This document shows positions 18,163-30,235 of a DNA stretch of 37,121 bases, piece after piece. Both the position numbers and the translations under genes were made by a program. Origin of the DNA: an uncultured Lachnospiraceae bacterium (GTDB taxonomy: Bacteria > Bacillota > Clostridia > Lachnospirales > Lachnospiraceae); NCBI GenBank assembly GCA_946566415.1, contig CAMNWW010000002.1, positions 1 through 37,121 of the forward strand, read 5' to 3'. Under the pieces are notes generated by a model. The model ran no database searches. It was given only the letters and a program-made list of their open reading frames with translations, and was not told the DNA's origin. Every line of letters starts with the position of its first letter. The first letter of the stretch is position 1.

Positions 18163-19008
18163 TCAAAAATTCCAGAGTTCCTGTGAGCCATATTTAATCG
18201 GATCTGTCAGAAAATTACGGAACAACTTATCATACTCCTTCTGGTAATGGTCCGCCTTTTCCTGATCCTCCATCACACGGAAAAAGGTCGCCGCCTGCAT
18301 GAACTTATCTTGTGTCTGGTAATTGCATTCCAGCCCTGTCATCGCCTCCTCCATCAGACCGATCGCCTTCTCCTTTTGTCCCCGTCCTGCAAGGTAAGTT
18401 CCGCATGAGCAGACACACTCAAAATTGTCCGGCTCTTCGCGATACCAGTTTTCATACCAGGCATCGCTCTCTTCCACTCTCTTCAGACTGTAAAGCGCGT
18501 CTCCGATCGCGCGGTTGTAATCGTTCGGCCTTTCCTTTTCCCACGCAAAAGTCTTTTTGACATCGTGACAGAAATCTATTGCATCCTCAAACCTCCTCAG
18601 GCAGAAATACACCGTGACTACCTTGGGAAGCCATTCCGCAAAATTATACCGGAACTCTGTCGCCTCGTCCACGTCAAACAGCTCCAGCTTTCGATAAGCC
18701 TCCGCAACATTCTCCTTGATTCTCTCCCAGACCGGATACCACGCTTCGAGGCACTGTTCCATCTCATACTTTTCATATAGCCCGTCGCCCGTCCTTAGCG
18801 CCGCGGCTACTCCTTTCCAGAGATCGCCCTCCTCTTTCTCCCCGCCTTCATCCTCAAGGGCTTCCTCATCCCACTCGTCATCGTCCAGAAAATCCTCATC
18901 AAACAAATCATCGTCAAAAGACATTTTATCAAAATCCTTCTGGCGCTTTACCGCCTCAAATATAGACTTCTGTAAAAGTTGGTTTGACATCTTCGTACAT
19001 TCCTCCAC
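18163..19008 (-). CDS. Acidic TPR-like repeat protein of unknown function
   Basis: Helical repeat pattern ('RAIGDALYSLKRVEESDAWYENWYREEPDNFECVCSCGTYLAGRGQKEKAIGLMEEAM') with Asp/Glu-rich N-terminal region; probable start at internal MSNQLL. Confidence 0.65.
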   Translation of the reverse strand: MEECTKMSNQLLQKSIFEAVKRQKDFDKMSFDDDLFDEDFLDDDEWDEEALEDEGGEKEEGDLWKGVAAALRTGDGLYEKYEMEQCLEAWYPVWERIKENVAEAYRKLELFDVDEATEFRYNFAEWLPKVVTVYFCLRRFEDAIDFCHDVKKTFAWEKERPNDYNRAIGDALYSLKRVEESDAWYENWYREEPDNFECVCSCGTYLAGRGQKEKAIGLMEEAMTGLECNYQTQDKFMQAATFFRVMEDQEKADHYQKEYDKLFRNFLTDPIKYGSQELWNF

Positions 19009-19673: not shown

Positions 19674-22427
19674 CTATTTTCTGCCAAGGCGTATTTTCTC
19701 CATGTCCGCCGCCAGTTCCCGGTCCATATGGTGAAATAAATAGTTCTTTCCCTGGTCTTTATGTTTTTCATATTCCTCCTGTATCTGCCTCCTGGTAAAC
19801 TCTATTTCATTTAAAAACTCACGGGATGAAATCAGCGTGCCGCCTTGTCCCAATGTAATGACCTGCTCCACACCGTCTGATGTCACCACCGTCACATGGT
19901 ATTTCCGTCCGATTTCATGCACCACTTTTTCAATATACTGGTCTGCAGTCTCCGCCTTTTTTGTATAAACCACATGGATATTGTGATATTTCAAAACTTC
20001 CATATTGAAGTTATCTACCTTATACGCATCAAACACCAGGATTAAAACGCATTTCTTAAACCCTTGATAGTTGCAGAGAATATCCATTAATTTATTCCTG
20101 GCAGCCTCGATATTTTCCTTTGCAAGCTCTTTCAGATCGTCCCATGCGAATATGACATTATATCCGTCTACCAACAAATATTCCTGCACGGCCTTTTCCT
20201 GTTTCCCCGGCTTCTTCTGTGAATCTGCCGTGACCGTCCTGGTTTCGCTGCTCCTCTTCCTCTCAACACGCCCGTATGTGCGGATGAAAATCTCCTCCAG
20301 TTCACAGTCTTGTTTACGGTTCCTCTCATATTCTCCATCACCGTATCTTTCGTGTATCCTTGACGGGCCCTTTCCGCCTTTAACCCCATCCAAATCCTGC
20401 TCTTCTGACTCTTCCCTGTCTTCTTCCTTATATAACTGGCTTTCAATATGCATATATTGGGGGACCTGGTCCCACGGCACATAAAATCCAGCCCCATGTG
20501 CGCAGAAAATAGAGCCTGGCGGATTTTCCACATCCCGTTCTGCGTCATAACCTGCTTCCTCTATGACTTCCTCTGCATTGGAACAGGGCGCATAACCCCC
20601 GAATTGACAGGAAATCCTGCCCTGTCCTCTGGTGTATGCATTGACTTCCCTTTGATAATCGCGCATCCCGGCGACCGGCGCCGTTCCTTTAAGAAGACAC
20701 ATTTCCCCGGCCGTCTCGGGAGCGGTAAATTCTCCTTGCATTTTCTGGATATCCGCCAGGGCGCGGCCTGTATATTCCGCCGGAACTTCCAGCCGGAATC
20801 TGTAATATGGTTCCAGAAGGACGCTGTCCGCCTGCATCAGCCCCTGCCTTACCGCACGGTAAGTGGCCTGCCGGAAATCGCCCCCTTCCGTATGCTTAAT
20901 ATGTGCCCGTCCCGCAAGCAGTGTAAACTTTATATCAGTGACTGCCGCTCCTGTCAGTACACCGCGGTGCTCTTTCTCTGCAAGATGTGTCAGAATCAGC
21001 CTTTGCCAGTTTCGATCCAGCACATCTTCGCTGCAACGGCTCGCGAACGTCACCCCGCTCCCCGCCTCGCCTGGCTCCAGAAGAAGATGCACCTCCGCAT
21101 AGTGGCGCAGCGGCTCAAAATGCCCTACTCCTTCCGCCGCCTTACGTATCGTCTCTTTATATACGATTTTCCCTGTGCCAAAAGAAGCCTTGATGCCGAA
21201 ACGCTCCTCAATCAGGCTGCGCAGGATTTCGATCTGAATCTCTCCCATGATCTGGGCATGAATTTCTTCCAGCTCCTCATTCCATACAATCCGAAGAAGA
21301 GGATCCTCCTCCTCCAACACCCTAAGATTTTGAAGCATTATATGGGGATCCACCGATTCCGGAAACAGCACACGGTAACTCAGCACCGGCTGAAGAACAG
21401 GCTTGGGGGACTCCTCCTCTGTTCCCAGACCTTCGCCGGGATATGTATGCGTAAGCCCCGTAACGGCGCAGACCACCCCCGCCTCAGCCTCCTGAAGCAT
21501 TTCAAATTTTTCTCCGGAATAGAGCCTGATCTGGTTCACCTTTTCTTCCCAAATCTCCGACGCATTTTCCGCGCTCCTGAGGTTGTCCTTAACCTTTAGT
21601 TTCCCTCTGGTGACCCGCAGATGCGTCAAACGGTTTCCCTGCAGATCCCGTGAAATCTTGTAGACTCTTGCTCCAAAAGAATCTCCCTGCTCCTTGCCAA
21701 GGGCCCGGTTTCCTATTGTAAAACGGCATATTCCTTCCAGAAGCCTGTCCACCCCCTGTATCTTAAGCGCCGAGCCAAAATAACAAGGGAAAACTTTCCG
21801 CTCCGCGATCAGACGGATAACCGAATCTTCCCCTATCCTCTCCTTCTCGATATACTCTTCCATCGCCTCCTCGTCAGAAAGCGCAAGCTGCTCCCAGAAC
21901 AGTTCCCGCTCTTCGGCTTCCTCATCAAAGGCAATACATCCCTCGTCCAGGATATTCTTCAATTCTTCCAATATTTTCTCCCGTTCCGTCCCCCTCTGGT
22001 CCATCTTGTTGACAAATACAAATACAGGTATCCCATACCTCTTTAACAGTCTCCAGAGCGTGCGGGTATGCCCCTGCACACCGTCCGCGCCGTTGATCAC
22101 AAGAATCGCATAATCCAGCACCGGAAGAGTCCTCTCTGTCTCCGCGGCAAAATCCACATGCCCCGGCGTGTCAAGCATCGTCATATATACGCCGTCCAGC
22201 ACAAGCTCCGCCTGTTTGGAGAAAATCGTAATCCCTCTGCCCCGCTCTAATATATGAGTATCCAGAAAGGCATCCCCATGGTCTACCCTCCCAGGTTTTC
22301 TTATATTTCCGCAAAGATACAGAATACTTTCCGATAATGTCGTCTTTCCCGCGTCTACATGGGCCAACAAACCCACACTAATATGTTTTCTATGTCCAAT
22401 TGGTTTATTTTCCGAGGTTTCCGCCAT
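19674..22427 (-). CDS. TetM/EF-G-like translational GTPase fused to a C-terminal YacP/Rae1-type NYN (PIN-like) nuclease domain
   Basis: N-terminus: G1 'AHVDAGKTT', 'RGITIF', G3 'DTPGHVDF', G4 'NKMD' and TetM-like domains; C-terminal ~170 aa 'YLLVDGYNVIFAWDDLKELAKENIEAARNKLMDILCNYQGF...LVFDAYKV...VVYTKKAETADQYIEKVV...VTVVTSDGVEQVITLGQGGTLISSREFLNEIE' matches YacP/Rae1 (DUF901). Confidence 0.93.
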   Translation of the reverse strand: MAETSENKPIGHRKHISVGLLAHVDAGKTTLSESILYLCGNIRKPGRVDHGDAFLDTHILERGRGITIFSKQAELVLDGVYMTMLDTPGHVDFAAETERTLPVLDYAILVINGADGVQGHTRTLWRLLKRYGIPVFVFVNKMDQRGTEREKILEELKNILDEGCIAFDEEAEERELFWEQLALSDEEAMEEYIEKERIGEDSVIRLIAERKVFPCYFGSALKIQGVDRLLEGICRFTIGNRALGKEQGDSFGARVYKISRDLQGNRLTHLRVTRGKLKVKDNLRSAENASEIWEEKVNQIRLYSGEKFEMLQEAEAGVVCAVTGLTHTYPGEGLGTEEESPKPVLQPVLSYRVLFPESVDPHIMLQNLRVLEEEDPLLRIVWNEELEEIHAQIMGEIQIEILRSLIEERFGIKASFGTGKIVYKETIRKAAEGVGHFEPLRHYAEVHLLLEPGEAGSGVTFASRCSEDVLDRNWQRLILTHLAEKEHRGVLTGAAVTDIKFTLLAGRAHIKHTEGGDFRQATYRAVRQGLMQADSVLLEPYYRFRLEVPAEYTGRALADIQKMQGEFTAPETAGEMCLLKGTAPVAGMRDYQREVNAYTRGQGRISCQFGGYAPCSNAEEVIEEAGYDAERDVENPPGSIFCAHGAGFYVPWDQVPQYMHIESQLYKEEDREESEEQDLDGVKGGKGPSRIHERYGDGEYERNRKQDCELEEIFIRTYGRVERKRSSETRTVTADSQKKPGKQEKAVQEYLLVDGYNVIFAWDDLKELAKENIEAARNKLMDILCNYQGFKKCVLILVFDAYKVDNFNMEVLKYHNIHVVYTKKAETADQYIEKVVHEIGRKYHVTVVTSDGVEQVITLGQGGTLISSREFLNEIEFTRRQIQEEYEKHKDQGKNYLFHHMDRELAADMEKIRLGRK

Positions 22428-22431
22428 AGAA

Positions 22432-22535
22432 AATGTCCCTTTCTGCTGTTTATTGTACTATATTGATGATGTTGCCCGATAAATGAGTCCACCGTCGGGC
22501 CCCATATTAATTATCATAACACAGAAAGGGACATT
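22432..22535. promoter_or_regulatory. 14-bp perfect inverted repeat (AATGTCCCTTTCTG / CAGAAAGGGACATT) spanning the leader/promoter of the TetM-NYN gene
   Basis: Arms 22432-22445 and 22522-22535. In minus-strand orientation the proximal arm contains the AGAAAGGGA Shine-Dalgarno 5' of ATG at 22427. An inner GCCCGA/TCGGGC hairpin lies between the arms. Confidence 0.7.
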
Positions 22536-22655
22536 AGTCGATAAGTGAAAATTACGCAGCAGGCTTCAACGGCTGACGCCTCCTTTTGTTCATGCGTCCA
22601 TGATACGGCTCCACCGTTAAACAAACAATCGCTAAAAACCGAAACATTTTCTATA

Positions 22656-22694: not shown

Positions 22695-23366
22695 CTAAAT
22701 CGTACCTAATGTTATCATAATATTAAGTATCCACATGATAATCGCCACGCAGACCCCGATAATGCACAGCGCTTTTCCTGCCTTCGCTCTTCCCGCCATG
22801 CTGGAGCCGGAACCCATACGCGCCCTACCAAACCCGACGCACCCTAGAAGGATGCTCACTATCGGTATCAAAAATGCAGATACAAGGCTTAGTATCCCAA
22901 ATACAAGAGCCATATTGGCTGCTTTGGTATTGTCCACTGTCCTCACCGGGATCGGCTGCCCTGTAGGCAGTCCCATTGATCCGTTGAACGGCTGGGCGCC
23001 CATTGATCCATTCATCGGCTGCCCTCCCGCAGGTCCTTGCTGTACAGGAAGCGGCTGCTGAAGCGTTCTAAACAAATCTTCCAGGCTGTTCTTATAAGGT
23101 TTCTTAGAAAGAGTTCCGACAAATCCATCCAGATCCCACTCGCCTCCGACAGTCCCTTTCATCCACGCCTCTAAGTGGAACACCCCGCCTGCGTAAGACC
23201 ATTTCAGATATTTAAACCCTTCCATCATCGCGTCCCCTGCGCGGTATGCCGGTTCTCCATGCCAGTCAGACATGCTGAACTGATTCTTCTGCAAATAATC
23301 ATTCATGATAAAACTCACGAAATCGTCCGGTTTATTAAGCACCAGATCCTGCACATATCTTGCCAT
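22695..23366 (-). CDS. Membrane protein of unknown function with C-terminal DUF4190-like two-TM region and Gly/Pro/Gln linker
   Basis: 'NGSMGAQPFNGSMGLPTGQP' linker then 'NMALVFGILSLVSAFLIPIVSILLGCVGFGRARMG...KAGKALCIIGVCVAIIMWILNI'. Confidence 0.7.
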   Translation of the reverse strand: MARYVQDLVLNKPDDFVSFIMNDYLQKNQFSMSDWHGEPAYRAGDAMMEGFKYLKWSYAGGVFHLEAWMKGTVGGEWDLDGFVGTLSKKPYKNSLEDLFRTLQQPLPVQQGPAGGQPMNGSMGAQPFNGSMGLPTGQPIPVRTVDNTKAANMALVFGILSLVSAFLIPIVSILLGCVGFGRARMGSGSSMAGRAKAGKALCIIGVCVAIIMWILNIMITLGTI

Positions 23367-30003: not shown

Positions 30004-30235
30004 ATTGATGCCATCCCGGATTGTTCCGTGCTTCGCACTCCCACAATCCGTACCTGCATTAATTGATGCCATCCCGGATTGTTCCGTGCTTCGCACTCCC
30101 ACAATCCGTACCCGATATTCGGATATCGTGGCGCTGACGCGCCACTTACATCCTCATATCGGGGCGGGTCATTAAGCCATAGAACCACTTATGTGCAAGC
30201 ACACCGTGGTCCATGGCTTTTGACCCTGGCATCAA
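30004..30235. repeat. Composite structured intergenic element: two 51-bp direct repeats plus several hairpins, bounded by ATTGATGCC ... GGCATCAAT
   Basis: Direct repeats 30004-30054 and 30062-30112 (identical); internal hairpins CGGATTGT/ACAATCCG, CGATAT/ATATCG, GTGGCGC/GCGCCAC, GCCATaGaACCAC/GTGGTcCATGGC. Confidence 0.85.

Follow-up and report, generated by a model that had tools for sequence, protein, structure and literature searches.

A fusion of an EF-G-superfamily GTPase and a Rae1-type NYN nuclease is a common core gene that usually takes the place of free Rae1

A gene encoding a translational GTPase of the elongation factor G (EF-G) superfamily fused to a Rae1-type NYN nuclease was analyzed in a 37,121-nucleotide stretch of DNA (hereafter, the window) from an uncultured Lachnospiraceae bacterium (contig CAMNWW010000002.1). 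The fusion is a common core gene, near-universal in its family, and it usually takes the place of free Rae1. It is probably (roughly 55%) the Rae1 of the cell, i.e., a translation-dependent mRNA endonuclease that would be carried to the ribosome by its own GTPase. Neither the fusion nor the RNase idea is new: Tet proteins of ten Clostridiales species were described as having gained a YacP-like NYN RNase domain, maybe as a novel resistance mechanism involving RNase activity (Atkinson 2015, PMC4342817). The proteins in that report show the same fusion, but were filed under a Tet subfamily with possible resistance, whereas here they form a separate subfamily; what is new is that the gene belongs to the core and stands in for free Rae1, that its domain IV loop speaks against Tet, and that it has invariant nuclease acids, a conserved linker motif and a promoter-like block. 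No ribosome-binding or cleavage data were found in the literature for any member of the fusion.

The gene occupies positions 19674-22427 of the minus strand, on which all of its parts are given below, and forms a single open reading frame of 917 amino acids, with its ATG at 22427 and no internal stops. Pfam searches placed the G domain (GTP_EFTU) at residues 14-235 (21723-22388), with the P-loop DAGKT, DTPGH with the catalytic His, and NKMD all intact in the alignment, followed in order by EF-G domains II (residues 252-326; 21450-21674), III (residues 346-417; 21177-21392), IV (residues 419-533; 20829-21173) and V (residues 536-617; 20577-20822). By domain order, GTPase motifs and catalytic His, this part is a translational GTPase of the EF-G superfamily. 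The sequence-only reading had proposed a 917-residue GTPase-NYN protein, which the open frame and the Pfam domain order confirmed; its borders for the linker and the NYN domain were correct to about 50 bases, and the motifs it quoted (VDGYN, ETADQYIEK and TSDGVEQ) were all found in the protein. In an AlphaFold2 model built with 35 relatives as input (mean pLDDT 81.8), the predicted fold consisted of an EF-G-like body and a separate confident domain, with low confidence at residues 674-705 and 722-745, both within the linker. Foldseek grouped the body with EF-G, and its PDB matches were Tet(O), Tet(M) and EF-G. The fusion is no assembly artefact, since it was found in 76 of the 80 best named loci, the others either ending at a contig edge (two) or having the NYN domain in another frame directly downstream (two). 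In loci L141 (3876-6432) and L130 (3807-6370), GTPase and NYN were found in separate overlapping or neighbouring frames, which may reflect a frameshift, an error in sequencing or a real fission of the gene. The suspicion of stops inside the gene of genome G260 was rejected, as its frame of 894 amino acids is open.

The C-terminal domain (residues 751-913; 19689-20177) matched the NYN_YacP profile (PF05991) with 179.2 bits against a cut-off of 24.6 (E 8.7e-53), covering positions 1-165 of 166, and its sole match in the PDB was Bacillus subtilis YacP/Rae1 (5MQ8, 5MQ9; 2.7e-24), with which it shares the same acidic residues and a score of 89 bits by sequence. Residues D754, N757, D800, D829, E833 and D851 were identical in 138/138 fused NYN domains, including very divergent ones, and D754, D800, D829, E833 and D851 were also kept in 41/41 stand-alone NYN domains; thus, the predicted Rae1-type nuclease with its catalytic acids was borne out, and loss of these acids across homologues was not seen. 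The B. subtilis protein is reported to be a ribosomal A-site endoribonuclease acting in a translation-dependent manner (PMC6613710, PMC10100781). YacP NYN domains had earlier been predicted to function in rRNA and tRNA maturation (cited in PMC4342817), and on that basis the fusion could instead be a maturation or ribosome-assembly factor, with the GTPase checking subunits and the nuclease trimming RNA. This is improbable, considering the A-site mRNA cleavage reported for B. subtilis Rae1 (PMC6613710) and the conservation of all EF-G domains together with the His at the domain IV tip (H509, 127/131 fused members), which fits the 70S ribosome better. GTPase motifs and catalytic His were kept almost without exception in the aligned fused members. 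Judging from the two active sites, selection seems to keep both halves of the protein functional.

The nature of the GTPase bears on the reading derived from PMC4342817, namely that the fusion is a ribosomal protection protein for tetracycline resistance with an added RNase. The five-domain EF-G architecture and an identity of approximately 30% to Tet(M)/Tet(O) over residues 11-614 are in line with it, as is the RefSeq naming of many members as TetM/TetW/TetO/TetS family; some carry the RefSeq name "translation factor GTPase family". Differences were found at loop III of domain IV (residues 508-519; 20871-20906), located by PDB match and alignment, which reads AHIKHTEGGDFR here and YYSPVSTPADFR in Tet(M). 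The residue of Tet(M) that clashes with the drug is Pro509 (PMC7456112); the equivalent position is K511 in the fusion, Lys in 129/131 fused members and Pro in none of the 131, while it is Pro in 4/4 resistance proteins compared. This Lys is part of a conserved KHT loop, in which the adjacent His is nearly invariant and the Thr invariant. Two positions before the Pro509 site, EF-G has a His and Tet(M)/Tet(O) a Tyr, and the subfamily carries the His (H509) mentioned above. The fusion shares fold, domain order, GTPase motifs and this tip His with EF-G, but its tip runs on as KHTEGGDFR, an extension, linker and nuclease are added, and it falls far under the EF-G cut-off (TIGR00484, 301 vs. 659 bits). 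The NCBIfam cut-offs for resistance proteins were also missed by far (tet_protect, NF012153, 433.5 vs. 775; NF033148, 289.2 vs. 1100). Moreover, in trees that included only three or four resistance proteins, the fused and unfused GTPases grouped together with 100% SH-aLRT support and were separate from Tet(M), Tet(O) and TetB(P), and in a plasmid table where tet(M), tet(O) and tetB(P) were flagged as resistance, matches to the subfamily came without any resistance prediction. The gene is also near-universal in its family, rather than sporadic. These results characterize the GTPase as a subfamily of its own, not Tet(M), without the S-P-V-S tip loop and with a different C-terminal extension. Of the TetM-like GTPase named in the sequence-only reading, the shared EF-G architecture therefore stands and the closer kinship does not, whereas its suggestion that this is not a plain tetracycline-resistance determinant is supported by the missed cut-offs and the replaced drug-displacing loop. 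Plain tetracycline resistance is unlikely, and a resistance protein that gained an RNase is highly improbable.

In order to evaluate how widely the fusion occurs, as the sequence-only reading had suggested, 294 genomes of the same order were surveyed. The PF05991 domain was present in 266 of them, nearly always exactly once, and a search with a model of domains IV-V detected the GTPase subfamily in 134 genomes, of which 101 had a fused form (848-1045 aa), 28 an unfused form (about 450-690 aa) and five a gene broken or at a contig edge; fused and unfused forms were assigned by open-frame length, with the NYN domain confirmed directly only at individually retrieved loci. Genomes with the fusion rarely had a second NYN match (3 of 101), and in all 28 cases the unfused GTPase was accompanied by an NYN gene elsewhere in the genome. 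In the family itself, the fusion was carried by 63 of 71 genomes, four the unfused pair, one a cut gene, and three lacked the GTPase, two of these also lacking NYN. At the phylum level the GTPase was detected in 31/398 genomes, mostly fused, and named carriers include Lachnospiraceae, Oscillospiraceae, Hungatella, Anaerovorax, Monoglobus and Desulfosporosinus. A stand-alone yacP was not found in the genome of the window itself, which proves little alone, as the draft is 69% complete and EF-G is missing too. In B. subtilis, Rae1 is reportedly a free protein of approximately 170 aa co-transcribed with yacO/rlmB, whereas the NYN domain of the fusion is the tail of a GTPase and is not near rlmB: by a simple motif, rlmB was found nearby in 0/168 fused loci (some redundant) vs. 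22/44 stand-alone genes. A conserved gene neighbourhood was not found among 99 fusion loci, the best cluster (an ABC-type ATPase) occurring in 10.

The phylogenetic analysis of the NYN domain showed that the split between fused and stand-alone forms needs two changes, as opposed to 31.8 with shuffled labels; in the GTPase tree, the fused label needed three changes once divergent members were included. An unfused GTPase from Ligilactobacillus was nested among the fused ones, which fits a loss of NYN. The simplest reading of these trees, which were quick and do not settle the rooting or how many times fusion occurred, is that of an old and mostly stable fusion. Unfused proteins (e.g., "translation factor GTPase family protein" of Ligilactobacillus salivarius pMP118) belong to the same subfamily and share the tip loop (mostly) and the extension that follows domain V, but end near residue 665. 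Because the GTPase also occurs unfused, including the Ligilactobacillus case inside the fused clade, it has some role for which an attached nuclease is not needed. Where compared, the gene of the unfused GTPase and the NYN gene lay on separate contigs or at a large distance from each other, so that a partnership between the two finds no support from an operon. The pMP118 gene (L193, 3998-5932) is located on a megaplasmid, bears the RefSeq name of a tetracycline-resistance gene and has the tip NVHTVGGDFR in place of IKHTEGGDFR. As regards mobility, most of the fusion is covered by three plasmid records, two of which were examined and are large non-mobilizable replicons; the phage records that match the NYN domain carry no annotation, and these matches probably represent host DNA.

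The extension after domain V (residues 618-665, ...SIFCAHGAGFYVPW...MH; 20433-20576) was confidently folded in the model and, based on the alignment, is common to fused and unfused members and absent from Tet and EF-G. Four residues in this region (C607, C615, C642 and H660; 20433-20609, residues 607-665), mostly kept in fused members and also absent from Tet and EF-G, represent a possible metal site. The linker that follows (residues 666-750, 85 aa; 20178-20432) is charged, with a D/E/K/R share of 48% compared with 28% in the GTPase part, is mostly disordered as judged from low pLDDT, and its length varied between 67 and 139 residues across relatives (from H660 to the NYN start). It contains a motif, E709-L-x-x-I713-F-x-x-T717 (20277-20303), identified by pattern search, alignment and model, in which I713 was identical in 35/35 and E709 in 33/35 aligned proteins. 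The pattern was present in 120/138 linkers and in 0.6% of shuffled ones, with many of the exceptions being near variants. Unfused proteins stop before the motif, which is thus fusion-specific; it lies inside a predicted helix (residues 699-718, modest model confidence) and may be a docking element. These features are relevant to another explanation, according to which the two parts are independent ribosome factors, joined in one chain only for the sake of common expression or dosage, one with an EF-G-like job (e.g., resetting stuck ribosomes) and the other performing ordinary Rae1 decay. The occurrence of each part alone in many genomes and the long, disordered linker are consistent with this possibility, yet the conservation of the fusion-specific motif and the retention of the fusion across many families suggest that joining matters, and we regard two independent factors as rather unlikely.

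Under the preferred reading of the fusion as the Rae1 of the cell, we infer that the GTPase with GTP would bind the factor site of the ribosome and insert domain IV in the decoding centre, and that the NYN domain, on a flexible linker of about 70-140 residues, would then cut mRNA. The targets would be ribosomes that stay stalled or that vacate the A site. Domain IV and the Rae1 domain would not be expected together in the A site, so that cutting would either come after GTP hydrolysis and a hand-over of the A site, which the linker would allow, or take place on mRNA elsewhere on the ribosome. The further proposal of a dedicated GTP-driven ribosome surveillance enzyme, in which the KHTEGGDFR tip would sense stalling, the tethered nuclease would get the A site after GTP hydrolysis and the linker motif would serve in docking or timing, is tentative and somewhat doubtful. 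In many Lachnospiraceae and relatives, which are common gut bacteria, the means by which Rae1 reaches its target ribosomes seems to be part of the protein itself, and the fused EF-G-like GTPase makes Rae1 recruitment directly testable. For resistance surveys, it is relevant that these core genes often bear the name of tetracycline-resistance genes in public annotation while the drug-displacing loop is missing.

Upstream of the gene, a pattern search detected a promoter-like block of the form TCGAC-N18-TATGAT (TCGACTAATGTCCCTTTCTGTGTTATGAT; 22513-22541, minus strand), suggesting that the fused gene has a promoter of its own. The pattern had one match in the whole draft genome and occurred at the fused gene in 2/7 other genomes searched, one of these with a second, unrelated match. 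Blocks of this form preceded 24 of 130 distinct fused genes, compared with 0.8 expected, a pattern that requires TCGAC, so that its conservation comes partly from the selection of sequences. The spacer of the block holds a sequence complementary to the ribosome-binding site (5' arm AATGTCCCTTTCTG, 22522-22535, minus strand), as determined by folding and complementarity tests, its partner being the 3' arm CAGAAAGGGACATT (22432-22445, minus strand), which contains the Shine-Dalgarno sequence. The resulting hairpin over the ribosome-binding site had a z of -3.0 in the window. Among the 24 spacers, 12 held at least 8 bases perfectly complementary to the ribosome-binding site (0/480 shuffles), and matches within genes exceeded those across genes, with 0/20,000 permutations as good, although these are largely two sequence types and relatedness was not corrected. 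This complementarity (22432-22541, minus strand) was kept in several relatives with two Shine-Dalgarno types. Since the 5' arm lies within the predicted promoter spacer, the hairpin would form only on transcripts started further upstream, and the complementarity may represent either a block on read-through transcripts or an inverted repeat acting at the DNA level. In relatives, the promoter-like block lies approximately 70 bases 5' of the start codon, and a Tet(M)-type drug-sensing leader was rejected on account of the too little room left between them.

In the window, a repeat that is dispersed through intergenic regions of the genome (CGACGGTGGACTCATTTGTCGGGCAAC; 22471-22497, minus strand) is found once between the two arms and lengthens the leader. 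The 2.3-Mb draft contains another 23 copies; many of them lie at contig ends, and most have an upstream GTCGATTTTGGGAGTGCAAAGCACGGAAAAATCGAC part that the copy in the window does not have. A role of this repeat as a regulon signal was rejected, given that the copies are dispersed, intergenic and in either orientation to genes. Two nearby open reading frames of the minus strand, of 223 (22695-23366) and 281 aa (18163-19008), had zero Pfam/NCBIfam matches, and a Clostridiales-1 RNA (RF01699) was identified with 144.8 bits at positions 30064-30234, also on the minus strand.
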